A stretch of DNA of 64,000 nucleotides, taken from positions 1,674,001 to 1,738,000 of the forward strand of contig NZ_CP059571.1 of assembly GCF_014055025.1 (NCBI RefSeq). Reading direction: 5' to 3'. Positions 35 to 6,546 of this stretch are shown one piece after another. Every line of letters starts with the position of its first letter. Positions within the stretch are counted from its first letter, which is position 1. The translations under genes were made by a program, and so were the position numbers. The notes beneath the pieces were generated by a model that did no database searches, was not told where the DNA came from, and saw only the letters and a list, made by a program, of their open reading frames with translations. The DNA is from Neisseria bacilliformis. GTDB taxonomy: Bacteria > Pseudomonadota > Gammaproteobacteria > Burkholderiales > Neisseriaceae.

Positions 35-619
35 TCACGGTCGCCGTTCGCCCCCAAGCCGCTGCCGCGTGAATGCCGGTTCGAAGGTGGCCAGTGTTTC
101 GTCCTGCGGCACGGCGGGGATGTCGGGGCGGGTCAGGTATTGGCCGAACAGGCGCAGCCCCATTGGGGCGAGTTCGCGCTGCCACAGGCTTTGTGCGGTA
201 TCGGTGGCGCGGATGTGGCACCAGTCCTGCAGCAGGATGCCGCCGGTGTCGGCGCCGTCGTCCATGCGGTATAGGGTGCCGCCGGTAACGGGCTCGCGCA
301 TATGGACAGCCCAGCGCACGGCGTCGCGGCCGCGATGGCGGGGCAGCAGCGAAGGATGGTAGCCGACGGCGCCGTAGCGCGCCTGATCGCGCAGGCTCTT
401 CGGGATGAAGACGTGGGCGTGGGCGGCAAGGATGACGTCGCATTCGGGTAGGGCCGCGGGCAGCGCGGTTTGCGCCGGTACGCCGTGGGCGGCGGCTGCC
501 TGAAACAGTCTGTCCGCGCTGTTCGGCGCGTAGACAGCGGTGACTTGATGGCCGTCGCGCAGGCATTGCTGCAAAAGCTCGGCGGCCAGCCATTTTTGGC
601 CGATGATGGTTATCCTCAT
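35..619 (-). CDS. Formyltransferase-like protein of the Com-led phage cluster
   Basis: This 194-residue protein begins MRITIIGQKW, a Rossmann start typical of N10-formyltetrahydrofolate-dependent formyltransferases. It carries the core GYHPSLLPRHRGRDAV near residue 90 and a DDGADTGG loop near residue 125. In methionyl-tRNA and glycinamide formyltransferases the catalytic triad is Asn-x-His plus Asp. Here the His and the Asp of DTG are present, but the Asn position reads Gly (GYH). The start is fixed by an ATGA overlap with the upstream ABC-GNAT gene. By position it is the last gene of the phage late region, where Mu has mom. I infer a role in modifying a base or a small-molecule donor; housekeeping tRNA formylation is unlikely in this setting. 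Confidence 0.8.
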   Translation of the reverse strand: MRITIIGQKWLAAELLQQCLRDGHQVTAVYAPNSADRLFQAAAAHGVPAQTALPAALPECDVILAAHAHVFIPKSLRDQARYGAVGYHPSLLPRHRGRDAVRWAVHMREPVTGGTLYRMDDGADTGGILLQDWCHIRATDTAQSLWQRELAPMGLRLFGQYLTRPDIPAVPQDETLATFEPAFTRQRLGGERRP

Positions 620-1743
620 GCGTCCTCCCCCTCTCCCAGATAGCGGAAGCCCTGTACGGCGCGGAAGTGGCCGCCGTAGCCCACAGCGTTGCCGGTTTTC
701 CCGCCGCTCGTGCGCTCCGCCGAGCGGCGTATGCTGGCGGCGGAGCGGGCTTTGTTGCCGCCGTATAAAACCGCCGATACCTGCGTCCACTTTTTGTCGC
801 GGCGCAGAGCGTTGGCCAACGCCGGATGTGAAGTGTGGAACAGCGTGCGCATGGGCTTTCGGTAGCGGTTTTCGCCGCGCAGCCACATCTCGCAGCAGGC
901 ATTGAGAAAGCGCATGCCTACGCCCGCGCCCTGCCACTCAGGCAGCACCACCAAACGGCACGCCCGCGCTTCGACCAAACCGGGGCGGGTACTGAACGCG
1001 ATATGCGCCACAGGCTGGCCGTTGACCAAACCCATGTAGTGGGTAGCGGCAATCATCGGCGGCAGTTTTAAATAATGATGCGGCTCAAACAGGCGCCAGT
1101 CGGCTTGTCGGCAAGGGTATATTTCCAGCTCGAGTTTTGGGCGTTGCCTGACCCACCCCCATTGGAATTGGCCGGTGTCGGTATCCAGCACCCAGTCGGG
1201 CTGCACCCAGTCCAAAATATCGTGGTGGCAGGACAGCAGTACTACCTGCCCCGTCGTACGGCGCCATGCTTTGGCAAACGCGCCCGCGCCGATTTGGGCG
1301 ATTTGGCGGTCGACCACCGAGCTGAACTCGTCCAATGCCGCAAAGGACGGTGCTTCGCACAGCAGTCGTGCCAGATTGGCGCGGAACTGCTCGCCGTTTG
1401 AGAGCACGGCGTACGGGCGCAGCCATGTCGGCACACTGCCCAAACCCACCGAAGCCAGCGCGGCGGTAATGTCGTTAAATGCGCCATCGGGTGCAATCGC
1501 ATCTACAATCGGCACATCCCGCGCCCATTTGGGCGCGTAGATGTGCCCCAGCTTTTTGCCGATGCTGGTTTTACCCGAGCCGGAAGAGCCGACCACCACG
1601 CCGATCTGCCACGGTTGCTCATCCAGCGGCAAATCCGCGCTTAGGTTAAAGTTTGCCCCGGTTTCCACATTAAACAGCGATTTCACAGCGGCGGCGCGGT
1701 AGCTGTCGAAATCCGAACAGCGATGGTTGATTTGGATTTTCAT
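616..1743 (-). CDS. ABC-type ATPase fused to a GNAT acyltransferase
   Basis: This 375-residue protein has two domains. The first is a soluble ABC ATPase: Walker A GSSGSGKTS at 52-60, signature LSNGEQ at 114-119, Walker B FAALDEF at 135-141 and a switch His at 173-174. No membrane segment is visible, so it is not a transporter. The second, from about residue 225, is a GNAT domain with acyl-CoA loop QGAGVG at 271-276. The start is set by an ATGA overlap with the 63-aa gene upstream, and its own end overlaps the formyltransferase start. Mom of phage Mu also has a GNAT-like fold, and this gene holds the matching place behind com. A role in DNA modification is an inference from that context. Confidence 0.8.
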   Translation of the reverse strand: MKIQINHRCSDFDSYRAAAVKSLFNVETGANFNLSADLPLDEQPWQIGVVVGSSGSGKTSIGKKLGHIYAPKWARDVPIVDAIAPDGAFNDITAALASVGLGSVPTWLRPYAVLSNGEQFRANLARLLCEAPSFAALDEFSSVVDRQIAQIGAGAFAKAWRRTTGQVVLLSCHHDILDWVQPDWVLDTDTGQFQWGWVRQRPKLELEIYPCRQADWRLFEPHHYLKLPPMIAATHYMGLVNGQPVAHIAFSTRPGLVEARACRLVVLPEWQGAGVGMRFLNACCEMWLRGENRYRKPMRTLFHTSHPALANALRRDKKWTQVSAVLYGGNKARSAASIRRSAERTSGGKTGNAVGYGGHFRAVQGFRYLGEGEDA

Positions 1744-1931
1744 ACGGTTACCACCTTTAATTTCAAACCTTGCGCTTTCAGCGCGGCGTACACCTGCTGC
1801 TGGTGCGGCTCGCTTTCGCACAGCACGACCACGCCGTACTGCTGTTTGTATTGGAAGCCGTTACGGCCGTAGTGTTTGGCCGCTTTTTGTTGCGGCGGCG
1901 GGTTTAGCGGGATGGCGTTGTTTTCGGGCAT
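1740..1931 (-). CDS. Small phage protein between Com and the ABC-GNAT gene
   Basis: The product has 63 residues, starting MPENNAIPLNPP and ending in a block of the form VVVLCESEPHQQQVYAAL plus a basic tail. I do not recognise the family by name. The C-terminal half looks like a small alpha/beta fold in which a strand is followed by a helix. The gene begins 28 nt inside the end of com and its stop overlaps the next start as ATGA. Its translation is therefore likely to depend on that of com, much as mom depends on com in Mu. It could be an accessory subunit of the proposed modification enzyme. Confidence 0.72.
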   Translation of the reverse strand: MPENNAIPLNPPPQQKAAKHYGRNGFQYKQQYGVVVLCESEPHQQQVYAALKAQGLKLKVVTV

Positions 1932-2086
1932 CCGTTTTTTCCTTTCTGAGGATTCGGATGCTCGGCGGCATTCTGGGTTGTTAAAGAACTGAATCGGTTC
2001 ACGGCCTTGCAGCGCGGGCATTTGATTTCAAAATTTCCCGTGCCGACGGCCAAGAGCTTATTGCAATGTGTGCAACGGTGTTTCAT
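1904..2086 (-). CDS. com: Com-like zinc-finger translational activator
   Basis: The 60-residue protein starts MKHRCTHCNKLL and carries two Cys pairs, CTHC at 5-8 and CPRC near 24-27, forming a zinc ribbon. This matches the Com family of Mu-like phages. Mu Com binds the mom mRNA and opens a hairpin that hides the mom ribosome site. Here the next gene is a 63-aa reading frame that begins 28 nt before the com stop, and no Mom protein is encoded nearby. Com is thus kept while the gene it controls has apparently been replaced. The start has a purine-rich stretch AGGAAACC some 10 nt upstream. Confidence 0.85.
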   Translation of the reverse strand: MKHRCTHCNKLLAVGTGNFEIKCPRCKAVNRFSSLTTQNAAEHPNPQKGKNGCPKTTPSR

Positions 2087-3430: not shown

Positions 3431-4831
3431 TCAAATTTTGATGCAGGCCAAGAGGGCGATGTTGCGCGGGCGGGTTTCGGCGCCGCCGCGCATGCCGGTG
3501 GTGGCGCGGACGGGGCGGTCGTCGGCGCGGGAAACGTCTTCCGTTCCGACGCTGTCGCCGGTCTCGCTGCCGTAGGTCGGGATGTCGGCGTTGATGTTGG
3601 TGACGTGGTTGTGGGCGCGGAATTCGTCGGCCTGCGCCGAACCTAAGGCGCGGTTGGCGTCGATGCCGCGCCCGTCGTCCCAGCCGCGCACAAATTCGCC
3701 GCGCAGGTCGGGCAGGTTGAAGGTGGTTTTGCCGTCGCCCGCGCCGTAGCTTGTGCCGACGGCGGCAAAAAGGGCGGCGTAGGCGGTGCGGGAGACGGCC
3801 GCGCCGTTGGCTTTGAGCCAGCCGGCGGGGGCGGTTTGGCCGGCGAAGTAGGCAATCATGCCGGAGGGGGCGGCTTCGGCCAGCTTGCCTGCGGTGGTGG
3901 CGGCGAAGTTGGCGTCGTCGCCCAAGGCCGTCTGAAATTCTTTGAGGGTGTCGAAGGCCGCGCCCGCGCCGCCGAGGATTTCGTTTTTCAGGGCGGTGCG
4001 CACGGCCTGCGCCTGCTGGCTTACCCAGCTTTTGTCGGCTTTTTCGTCGGCCAGTTTTTTGCCCATGGCGGCGGAGAGGGGGACGGCGGCGGCGTTGGAT
4101 GTCAGGCTGTTTTCCACGCTGCCGGTAACCAGTAGGGTGCCGGAGGCTTTGGGGAAGAAGTAGGTGTAGTTGCCCGCGACGCTGCCGTCGTTGCCGCTGC
4201 CCCATTTTTTGTCGATGTTGGCCGCGTCGGTTACGAGGCCGATGTAGGGGTCGTTGCCGCGTATGAGGTGGACGGCGTAGGGGCGCGGCGAGGATGCGTT
4301 GCGCCACGAGAGGGCGTTGTAGCCTTTGAGTTCGAGGGTTTCGGACAGGGCACCGCCGGTGAGCGGCAGGCAGGCGGCGGCGGCTTCGTCTATGGCTTTT
4401 TTCAGCTCTTTGCCCTGCTCGGCCGACAGGGCGGCGTCGCGCCCGCCCGCCGTGAGGTTGTCGATGAGTCTGACCACACCGGCGAGGGTGGCGGTGGCTT
4501 TGGCCAGCTCGTGGGTGTGGCCGGTGCCGCCGCTGCCCGCCCAGTTGGCGGTGCTGCCGGAGAGGGTGGACGGGGTGGCGAGGGTGAGGCTGCGGTTGGC
4601 GGCGAGGCTGCCGCCGCCGGTCAGCCCCGCGCCTGCGCCGATGGTAACGGCTTGCAGGCCGCCGATGCCCTGCACGGCTTTGGCCAGTTCGGTTTTGAGG
4701 TAGAGGGTGCGGTTGGCCAGCTGGCGGGTGGGGCGGTTGTCGATGCCGTTTGGGCCGCCCATTACCGGGTCGGATGTCTCAAACTGGTAGATGCCTTCTT
4801 CCCAGGCAGGGGTTTCGGTCAGATTTGCCAT
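3431..4831 (-). CDS. Tail fibre protein with tail-collar domain
   Basis: The 466-residue protein starts MANLTETPAWEEGIYQFETSD, a common N-terminus for Mu- and P2-type fibres that bind the baseplate. Gly/Ala/Ser-rich shaft segments fill the middle. A tail-collar domain begins near residue 330 with GMIAYFAGQTAPAGWL and continues through FNLPDLRGEFVRGWDDGRG. The protein should form the receptor-binding fibre. The ATG overlaps the stop of the tail protein I gene by one base. The C-terminal region is the likely host-range determinant. Confidence 0.9.
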   Translation of the reverse strand: MANLTETPAWEEGIYQFETSDPVMGGPNGIDNRPTRQLANRTLYLKTELAKAVQGIGGLQAVTIGAGAGLTGGGSLAANRSLTLATPSTLSGSTANWAGSGGTGHTHELAKATATLAGVVRLIDNLTAGGRDAALSAEQGKELKKAIDEAAAACLPLTGGALSETLELKGYNALSWRNASSPRPYAVHLIRGNDPYIGLVTDAANIDKKWGSGNDGSVAGNYTYFFPKASGTLLVTGSVENSLTSNAAAVPLSAAMGKKLADEKADKSWVSQQAQAVRTALKNEILGGAGAAFDTLKEFQTALGDDANFAATTAGKLAEAAPSGMIAYFAGQTAPAGWLKANGAAVSRTAYAALFAAVGTSYGAGDGKTTFNLPDLRGEFVRGWDDGRGIDANRALGSAQADEFRAHNHVTNINADIPTYGSETGDSVGTEDVSRADDRPVRATTGMRGGAETRPRNIALLACIKI

Positions 4832-5409
4832 TAAGCGGTTCCTCGGTTGAATTGGCCGTCGCGCAGGGCGCGACCGTTGTGCCGCAGCGCGGCCTGTTGG
4901 TAATCCAGCGACGCCAAAACGCAGCGGGCGGGGGCAAACGCAGCCAGCGTTTTACGCAGCATGGCGGCCTGGTCGTTGGTAATCGGCGCCGACATCAGAA
5001 TGCGGTAGTACGCCCAGCGGTCGGCGTGGCCGTGGGTATAGCGGCCGTCGCGGCGGATTTCGCCGTTGTGTTTTTTGTTGGACAGCCCTTCGATAATTTC
5101 CACTTCACCAAAACCCAGCCGCCGCACGATTTCGCGGATGGCCCACGGCGTGCCTTTTTTGCGGTGCAGCTCGTACGCGCCTTTAATCAGGCGGCGGCGG
5201 GCGTCGTCGCTTTCGGCCAGCCAGTAGCCGTCCACGCCCAAGATGCTGCGGCTTTCGGCCAAGAGTTCCAGATGCGCGGGCGCGACCAAATCGACCAGGC
5301 GCGGCATCAGGCGCGGCAGCTCGGCCAAATCCAGCCGCAGGCCGAGTTCGGCCAGCGCGCGGGCGCGTTGGTCGCGTTCGATAATCGCGGCGTAGGAGAG
5401 TTTGGCCAT
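4831..5409 (-). CDS. Phage tail protein I (baseplate)
   Basis: The 192-residue product matches the P2 gpI family: a helical N-terminus, then ILGVDGYWLAESDDARRRLIKG and HRKKGTPWAIREIVRRLGFG near residues 55-105. It sits between baseplate J and the fibre, which is the canonical J-I-H order. It should link the baseplate wedge to the fibre. The gap to J is only 3 nt, so the two are almost certainly cotranslated. Confidence 0.9.
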   Translation of the reverse strand: MAKLSYAAIIERDQRARALAELGLRLDLAELPRLMPRLVDLVAPAHLELLAESRSILGVDGYWLAESDDARRRLIKGAYELHRKKGTPWAIREIVRRLGFGEVEIIEGLSNKKHNGEIRRDGRYTHGHADRWAYYRILMSAPITNDQAAMLRKTLAAFAPARCVLASLDYQQAALRHNGRALRDGQFNRGTA

Positions 5410-5412
5410 TGC

Positions 5413-6546
5413 CTAGCCCTCTGCTGTATGCGCGGCGGCGCGGATATCGGCCGATATGCAGCGCGCCCATTGGTCGGGCTTAACTTCGGTCAGCGGCAGG
5501 CCGTGCAGCACTACGTTGTAAACGCCCGCCACTTTCAAGGCCGTCTGAAAAACGAGCGGCACGATGTCCAGCCCCAGCTTGGCGCGGCGGCGGCTTTCGT
5601 AGTCCGCCCAGGCGGCGCGGGCGGCGGCCAGCACTTCGGCGGCGTTGGCGCCGGTAAACAGGGTCAGCTCGGCATCCAGGCGGTAATCCACCGGCTGCGG
5701 CGCGGCCACGGATACGGTGTCGCACAGCGGCCGGCGGTCTTCGGCCGATAAGGCAGCCTGAACCTTGGCCAAGAGTTCGGCGGACGGCAGGCCGTCTTTG
5801 GCCAGCACGGTTACGGCGACGCGCCCGCCTATCGGGTTGCCCGCGCCGTCAAGCGCGTTGGCGACGTGGACGTCGGCCACGGCGGCGCTGGCCTGCCGCG
5901 CCCAATACTGGTAGGCGCCGACGGGGCCCGCGACGCTGAAACTCTCGAAAGCCAGCAGGATGCGTTCGCGGTAGGCTGCGTCGTCCTCCGCTTCCGCGCC
6001 GCCCGCCGATGCGGTGGTGTTGGCGGCGGCCACATCGATGGTCGGGTGCAGCCGCTCGGCCGGGGTGTTGATTTGCCCTGCCGACCAGCCGTTGCCGGAC
6101 AAGCCGGTTTGGGTGCACTCGGCGGCCAGTTCGACGGCGGGGCTTTGCGCGGTCAGCATGCCCGCTGCGGTGGTGGCAAACGACACCTGTCCGGCTGCAA
6201 CCAGCGTGCCTTTGGGCACGGGTATCTGTTGGCCGTCGATAAGCTGCGCGCTAAAACGCAGGGTGGTGAGCGCGCTTTGGGCACTTAGCCGGGGCGTGCC
6301 GACGTCGTCGCCGCACAAATCCAGCATCAGGCCGGTGGCAAAGCGCGGATGCTGCTGGCGGTAGGCTTCGTTGACCTGCGCCCTTAACAGCGTTTCGCGG
6401 TAGGCAAAGGTGTTGATGATGAGTCGCTCGATATGGGCGGGCTGCAACACCTTGCCCGCGCGGCGCTCGTAGTCGGCCACGGTCTCGGCCAGTACGGCGG
6501 CCAGATCGTCTTCGACGATTTTGATGTCGTTTTGGTTCCAATCCAT
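5413..6546 (-). CDS. Baseplate assembly protein J
   Basis: This 377-residue protein belongs to the baseplate J/gp47 family of contractile tails. It begins with a helical region (LAAVLAETVADYERRAGKVL) and carries the typical GGAEAEDDAAYRERILLAF segment near residue 190. The family builds the wedge of the baseplate. The gene follows W and precedes I, in P2/Mu order. An uptake-sequence core is embedded in the coding region near 5541. Confidence 0.92.
   Translation of the reverse strand: MDWNQNDIKIVEDDLAAVLAETVADYERRAGKVLQPAHIERLIINTFAYRETLLRAQVNEAYRQQHPRFATGLMLDLCGDDVGTPRLSAQSALTTLRFSAQLIDGQQIPVPKGTLVAAGQVSFATTAAGMLTAQSPAVELAAECTQTGLSGNGWSAGQINTPAERLHPTIDVAAANTTASAGGAEAEDDAAYRERILLAFESFSVAGPVGAYQYWARQASAAVADVHVANALDGAGNPIGGRVAVTVLAKDGLPSAELLAKVQAALSAEDRRPLCDTVSVAAPQPVDYRLDAELTLFTGANAAEVLAAARAAWADYESRRRAKLGLDIVPLVFQTALKVAGVYNVVLHGLPLTEVKPDQWARCISADIRAAAHTAEG

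Follow-up and report, generated by a model that had tools for sequence, protein, structure and literature searches.

A Com-led gene cluster pairing an ABC-ATPase/GNAT fusion with an FDH-type formyltransferase in a Mu-like prophage of Neisseria bacilliformis: a candidate DNA acyl-modification system

In phage Mu, the Com protein opens translation of the mom gene late in infection, and the start of mom lies inside com, in frame +1. Another phage system has been described at the level of prediction: a survey of jumbo phages (PMC7824862, section 3.4.7) anticipates an uncharacterised DNA acyl modification carried out by a GNAT acyltransferase together with an ABC ATPase, and credits the idea to Iyer et al. 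2013 (Nucleic Acids Research, NAR). Here we describe a cluster of four genes with likenesses to both, situated at positions 35 to 2086 of a 64,000-nucleotide (nt) stretch of Neisseria bacilliformis DNA (contig NZ_CP059571.1, positions 1,674,001 to 1,738,000; the whole stretch is called the window below). The genes com, p63, ABC-GNAT (an ABC-ATPase/GNAT fusion) and FMT (a formyltransferase-fold protein) lie on the minus strand in the com-mom position of Mu, each overlapping the next by 28 nt (com/p63), 4 nt (p63/ABC-GNAT) and 4 nt (ABC-GNAT/FMT), and their place and overlaps agree with an earlier reading of the window made from the sequence only. The cluster may be a phage DNA-modification operon in which the GNAT domain moves a formyl group from formyl-coenzyme A (formyl-CoA), made by FMT, onto phage DNA bases; we rate this reading slightly short of probable. 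The prediction that ABC-GNAT modifies DNA by acylation is not new, having appeared in the survey section cited above. What is new, and described below, is the marking of one ABC-GNAT clade by FMT, the tail taken from ParB-type proteins, the exchangeable donor genes and an active site of FDH type; together they predict specific, testable chemistry.

The fusion protein and the formyltransferase

ABC-GNAT (616..1743, minus strand; 375 amino acids) is composed of an ABC-ATPase domain (residues 1-200; 1144..1743, minus strand) and a GNAT acyltransferase domain with a C-terminal extension (residues 205-373; 625..1131, minus strand). The protein matches phrog_11143 with an E-value of 1e-158. In Pfam, ABC_tran reaches 28.4 bits (cut-off 25), while the GNAT part is barely over the cut-off for PF00583 (20.8 bits against 20.7) and under it for PF13508 (23.9 against 27). 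Judged from the alignment of 42 members, the catalytic motifs of both domains are intact: 39 to 42 of them retain the Walker A motif, the LSNGE signature, the Walker B Asp-Glu pair and the H-loop His, and 38 to 42 the acyl-CoA motif Q-G-x-G-x-G, with an F-x-x-H-H-Y-L motif of the GNAT domain conserved less strictly. The AlphaFold2 model (mean predicted local distance difference test score, pLDDT, 86) has a MalK-like ABC domain and a RimI-like GNAT domain, and among the 50 predicted viral structures listed, the only good full-length match is a protein of Leptospira phage LE4. No gene for a membrane partner was seen in the cluster.

The replacement of Mom by another GNAT, proposed in the sequence-only reading, is borne out. 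None of the 42 ABC-GNAT members matches the Mom family PF25680 at E 0.002 or better, the window protein does not match it at E 1, and hhalign gives the GNAT domain and Mom a probability of 0.5% (E 0.12). Homology of the GNAT domain to Mom was rejected, as nothing beyond an HHY/KHY motif speaks for it; a structure-comparison listing for ABC-GNAT contains no Mom structure, from which nothing is concluded. Matches of all 42 members to PADLOC mad3, which in the window protein cover only 39 ABC residues, were taken as plain ABC homology.

The nearest organism-named relative of ABC-GNAT is from Neisseria sp. (78%). Across the genus, phrog_11143 finds matches in 46/46 genomes and in 14/14 controls through the ABC part; by E-value, the full gene is present only in this genome, with pieces in one other genome of the genus (G019), where locus L077 holds a broken ABC-GNAT gene. 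In phages of Streptococcus, Oenococcus, Lactococcus, Thomasclavelia and Enterococcus (H24, H27-H29, H35-H37, H40-H44, H46), the match is split into two or three pieces, and ABC and GNAT are separate open reading frames (ORFs) where annotated. At L110 (5329-6028), an extra ORF follows ABC-GNAT and is itself followed by a second, C-terminal ABC-GNAT piece.

FMT (35..619, minus strand; 194 amino acids) matches Formyl_trans_N with 72 bits and phrog_9240 with an E-value of 9e-58. It is closest to FDH (164 bits vs 109 for the next family), and its best match in both sequence and fold is the N-terminal formyl-transfer domain of ALDH1L1/FDH. The triad His88, Ser90 and Asp124 is present in 37/37 aligned FMTs. 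Position 86, which carries the catalytic Asn elsewhere, is Gly86 in the window and G, A, V or I in 37/37, with Asn in 0/37, which confirms the lack of this Asn remarked in the sequence-only reading. In FDH itself, Ile104 occupies the Asn position of the enzymes FMT, ArnA and GART, and the I104N variant has an activity below 10%, according to PMC4388273 (citing Reuland 2006). FDH is described as handing its formyl group to a 4′-phosphopantetheine arm (PMC8748788), its N-domain alone as a hydrolase that acts with a thiol (PMC4388273), and for HypX, which has an FDH-like domain and matches the FMT profile with an E-value of 2e-12, formyl-CoA production is proposed by the authors of PMC6802093. 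Because FMT has the His-Ser-Asp triad of FDH, and FDH also lacks the Asn, the absence of this residue is, as far as sequence can tell, the normal state of FDH-type, thiol-directed enzymes and not a sign of decay. The acyl- or formyl-type DNA modification suggested earlier stands as a best guess in its general form, but the missing Asn calls for an FDH-type, thiol-directed understanding of FMT. A gene of Gordonia phage Axumite annotated as a tRNA-methyltransferase (gp3; L002, 1805-2452) is also an FMT.

Gene linkage and the enzymes behind ABC-GNAT

Four scans yielded 172 distinct ABC-GNAT loci after de-duplication by a stretch of the ABC-GNAT protein; three scans, among them the FMT scan and the wider clade-B scan described below, kept the best 80 loci each (two of them with at least 600 matches listed), which biases the sample towards close relatives, and the ABC-GNAT identity classes of 51-100% and 34-40% derive from these best-80 selections. 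Phages whose hosts are unrelated show p63, ABC-GNAT and FMT in this same order, which is therefore not due to chance. Com is present in 70/172 loci (58 identified with phmmer, a further 12 with a profile of Com). Among the 38 viral-contig loci with the closest ABC-GNAT relatives, 17 have all four genes, 8 have p63, ABC-GNAT and FMT, 6 have Com, p63 and ABC-GNAT, 4 have p63 and ABC-GNAT, and 3 have ABC-GNAT alone. The 18 bacterial-genome loci comprise 11 with all four genes, 4 with p63, ABC-GNAT and FMT, 2 with ABC-GNAT and FMT, and 1 with p63 and ABC-GNAT. Several of the contigs in these counts stop directly behind ABC-GNAT.

When loci are found through FMT (best 80 of 301 confirmed), the distance from the end of ABC-GNAT to the start of FMT is at most 126 nt in 79/80, and the contig of the remaining locus, L238, is cut 120 bases before FMT. 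When they are found through the ABC protein, FMT is present in 51 of the 69 loci of clade A, cut off in 13 and absent from 5 (51/56 testable), and is present in 0/47 testable loci of clade B, 3 more of the 50 being cut off. A wider clade-B scan, pooled with the earlier loci, gives 124 distinct loci with 0 FMT genes and with a ParB-type gene upstream in 109, none in 10 and a cut-off contig in 5. Among the loci seen, FMT marks one ABC-GNAT clade: the FMT-bearing set of an 87-row tree falls into a single clade with a Shimodaira-Hasegawa-like approximate likelihood ratio (SH-aLRT) support of 100 and a stem of 1.42 changes per column, in a tree that labels L036 'none' although FMT is present there. 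The few members of this clade without FMT include the early branches L110, L089 and L108, and therefore loss of FMT and its late gain both fit.

Other enzymes are found in the slot of FMT. Two genes behind ABC-GNAT in Rhodococcus phage Jace encode an aspartate decarboxylase, PanD (PF02261, E 2e-33), and a protein resembling a CoA-transferase of family III (PF02515, CoA_transf_3, E 2e-8) that spans only some half of the usual profile length. The decarboxylase profile, used for a scan, returned 20 loci, and pooling with earlier ones left 11 distinct by sequence; in 10/11, ABC-GNAT lies upstream (gap of at most 160 nt) and a CoA-transferase-like gene next downstream, while L388 has neither. Ten ABC-GNAT rows, from nine PanD loci, share a clade with three rows without the gene pair (98 support). 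At L380 (318-4138), the decarboxylase and CoA-transferase-like genes lie between two ABC-GNAT genes. At L133, a family-I CoA-transferase gene (CoA_trans, PF01144, E 2e-34) overlaps the end of ABC-GNAT; no second case of this type was found in a scan made with one sequence and reaching close relatives.

A single rule, donor supply, is proposed to cover FMT, PanD with a CoA-transferase, and the lone CoA-transferase. The last gene or genes of the operon would choose the acyl-CoA, namely formyl-CoA with FMT, beta-alanyl-CoA with the aspartate decarboxylase and CoA-transferase, and another acyl-CoA with the lone CoA-transferase. One locus does not fit this rule: at L324 (5118-5882), the gene that overlaps ABC-GNAT at its 3′ end encodes a family-2 glycosyltransferase, which might be there by chance or serve to decorate. 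At most clade-B loci, no donor-type gene was recognised behind ABC-GNAT. It is conceivable, with more reserve than for the formyl operon itself, that these loci represent one modular family of DNA acyltransferases in phages, where an ABC-GNAT core guided by ParB would be combined with an exchangeable, operon-encoded acyl-CoA maker to give different base marks. With similar reserve, the marks might be N-formyl bases with FMT, as in the window, beta-alanyl bases with PanD and the CoA-transferase, as in Jace, and others.

The linkage would serve equally a two-step modification, in which GNAT adds an aminoacyl group to a base and FMT then N-formylates its free amine in the manner of methionyl-tRNA formyltransferase, whose fold is also close to that of FMT; the PanD variant would even point to an aminoacyl donor such as beta-alanyl-CoA. 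The active site speaks against this scheme, since all 37 FMTs lack the Asn that is common to the amine-formylating FMT, ArnA and GART according to PMC4388273, and the sequence of FMT is much nearer to the thiol-using FDH. In addition, no aminoacyl-supplying gene was seen between or behind the clade-A genes in clusters of downstream ORFs, made without a family scan. The two-step scheme appears unlikely, though it fares best among the alternatives.

The ParB-type partner, Com and the target

p63 (1740..1931, minus strand; 63 amino acids, in a frame that stays open as far as 2021) matches phrog_28816 with an E-value of 8.5e-20. In phages without Com, the gene preceding ABC-GNAT encodes a ParB-type protein: ParB_N is matched by 6/7 tested partners, with scores that exceed the curated cut-off in 3 (P335, E 1.7e-9), and the partner in Gordonia phage Axumite, which has no Pfam match, is labelled ParB-like by its depositors. 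These partners end in a tail of about 45 residues, which reads YGVIVxCxxExxQxxVYxxLxxxGxxCKVV in the closer ones. The window p63 is matched by 7/12 ParB-type partners of other phages (E 0.1 or better; best E 2e-10); the other 5/12 (Jace, EastWest, LE3, Pmp13, P335) are unmatched at E 0.1, their tail likeness being a judgement by eye. Even at E 1, p63 fails to match ParB_N, and it has only the C-terminal tail in common with the partners. By sequence comparison, p63 is a C-terminal piece of a ParB-type partner from which the ParB domain is absent, so that the 63-residue protein listed in the sequence-only reading is present and overlapping as described but has to be understood differently. A Porphyromonas phage protein labelled 'acr candidate' (DBA55004.1; L003, 4876-5004) is a p63 homologue that precedes ABC-GNAT and FMT.

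A long ParB-type partner (an ORF of at least 140 amino acids) is found at 76 of the 172 distinct loci, with Com in 0/76. The 82 short-tail loci (ORF below 100 amino acids) include 57 with Com by phmmer, 12 more by the Com profile and 13 without; Com was searched only among the ORFs of each retrieved stretch, and a contig cut upstream could hide it. It seems, therefore, that in the Com-led branch the ParB domain was lost while the tail was retained. More than half of the ABC-GNAT homologues thus stand outside the Com context from which the sequence-only reading started (76/172 behind a ParB-type gene), but no known unrelated role was found for them. Com-led loci are assumed to be Mu-like, as was seen for the present prophage from its PHROG matches and for Komp_PAO1_1 from annotation.

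Com (1904..2086, minus strand; 60 amino acids) belongs to the zinc-ribbon family PF10122 (29.9 bits, cut-off 22.9), matches phrog_6417 and phrog_13819 (gpCom), and is 43% identical to Mu Com over 46 amino acids (E 1e-9). A hairpin over the p63 start (1928..1961, minus strand) is a candidate Com-controlled translation-inhibitor stem: its 7-bp stem, GCATCCG/CGGATGC, carries the p63 start codon in the 3′ arm, its loop contains a Shine-Dalgarno-like AAAGGA, and its predicted fold has an energy of -14.8 kcal/mol and a z of -3.27 (computed on the identical sequence in L004). For the translational switch that the com overlap had suggested, the folding signal is weak across the family and only slightly above that of controls, with a mean z of -0.85 at the p63 start in 69 loci vs -0.54 and -0.39 in two controls (p 0.03 and 0.005, uncorrected for the relatedness of the loci). 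The reading frame of p63 relative to com is +1 in 64/70 loci, 0 in some and +2 in the window, and a Com-p63 frameshift fusion replacing the ParB protein was rejected on account of these differing frames. A Mu-like Com switch acting on p63 is, on this evidence, plausible. Two Rfam matches near the cluster, both under their gathering scores, were taken as chance.

The first position of the window falls a short way within the right end of the Mu-like prophage; the genome is of Neisseria type, and its 10-base uptake word occurs in 71 copies across the 64 kb. Judged by eye, the prophage ends roughly 100-150 bases further to the left, next to or within an ORF resembling a TonB-dependent receptor (L076, about 4580-5880; also by eye), which it possibly interrupts. 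PHROG matches in the prophage include a transposase (phrog_310, E 3e-119), a DNA transposition protein, a terminase, a portal, a tail sheath and head proteins; the terminase is about 30 kb away from the cluster.

The nature of the target is suggested by the slots in which these genes lie. A search with the P335 partner matched 492 phage records; the methylase-annotated matches examined have an N6_N4_Mtase domain in 4/4 cases and ParB_N in the same protein in 2/4. Such ParB-like DNA methylases stand directly before the terminase in WO and Lj771 and do not in Javan108 and Wizard (2/4 regions), and a terminase is near ParB and ABC-GNAT in 7/15 annotated phage regions, within the stretch shown. 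Since the com-mom slot and the pre-terminase slot house DNA-modification genes in some phages, we infer that DNA is the target of ABC-GNAT, with slot kinship as the main ground.

A protein target, such as host RNA polymerase, the ribosome or a phage protein acylated during takeover, would make the DNA link accidental. The GNAT domain does align with RimI, and there are known phage GNATs with host proteins as acylation targets (Rac, in PMC7824862), yet the pairing of ABC-GNAT with a ParB-type protein, or with just the tail of one, and a slot used for DNA-modification genes in two unrelated phage layouts make this improbable. It is still less probable that ParB and ABC-GNAT form a packaging or chromosome-handling factor with GNAT as its regulator: the terminase neighbours that would favour it are missing from 8/15 annotated regions, the prophage cluster has no ParB domain and sits in the com-mom slot far from its terminase, and the conserved acyl-CoA motif and the CoA-enzyme partners would be left unexplained. 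Least credible of all is that FMT is a free 10-formyl-tetrahydrofolate hydrolase that tunes folate pools in infection and takes no direct part in the ABC-GNAT reaction, as the thiol-dependent hydrolysis by the isolated FDH N-domain (PMC4388273) might suggest, given that neither ABC-GNAT directly upstream in 79/80 FMT-found loci nor the confinement of FMT, in the loci seen, to a single clade of ABC-GNAT is expected of a general metabolic gene.

Returning to the formyl-modification operon, the following sequence of events can be envisaged. At a late stage of infection, Com would open translation of p63 and the following genes in the way known for mom in Mu. FMT would make formyl-CoA from 10-formyl-tetrahydrofolate, and ABC-GNAT would put the formyl group from it on phage DNA bases. 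p63, or elsewhere ParB with the same tail, would dock ABC-GNAT, whose ATPase might gate or power the enzyme on DNA by analogy with TmcA, a helicase-GNAT protein that acts on tRNA. Bases modified in this way would keep the restriction enzymes of the host from acting and so shield the phage DNA.

Comparison with described systems

We know of no description of an enzyme-installed formylated DNA base, nor of any nucleic acid that is formylated from formyl-CoA, and no report of a link between FMT and ABC-GNAT was found in the open-access literature, a search that excluded subscription papers and Iyer et al. 2013. If the proposal holds, phages would possess a plug-in DNA decoration in which a small gene for donor synthesis decides the mark, so that the chemistry could be guessed from the operon and then checked in one phage after another. 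New base modifications would be expected, the published prediction of DNA-acylating ABC-GNAT proteins would become directly testable, and an explanation would be at hand for genes that some phage annotations label as tRNA-methyltransferase, glycinamide ribonucleotide (GAR) formyltransferase, ABC siderophore transporter or anti-CRISPR candidate.

The system predicted by Iyer et al. has the same fusion, and the example given in PMC7824862, QAX98348.1, is our phage match H30 (36% identity); the survey passages on this system, by contrast, mention no FMT, CoA enzymes, ParB tail or Com. Compared with ALDH1L1/FDH, which it resembles most closely and with which it has the His-Ser-Asp triad and the lack of Asn in common, FMT stands alone as a 194-residue protein without a carrier-protein or dehydrogenase domain, and its acceptor is a prediction. 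The N-terminal domain of HypX is likewise FDH-like, with formyl transfer to CoA proposed, but according to PMC6802093 its reaction is proposed to continue to CO and its triad is modified. Methionyl-tRNA formyltransferase differs in having the Asn that is absent from all 37 FMTs and a C-terminal tRNA-binding domain, and FMT aligns only with residues 4-208 of the 307-residue 1fmt chain. The phage ParB-DNA-methylase fusions have a homologous ParB domain and, in 2/4 regions, the pre-terminase slot, whereas a methylase replaces the tail and ABC-GNAT. Finally, com-mom of phage Mu is matched by Com, by the right-end position and by an overlapping downstream gene, in frame +1 in Mu and in 64/70 loci for p63; unlike Mu, the present cluster has no Mom (PF25680), has p63, an ATPase and FMT in addition, and places p63 in frame +2.

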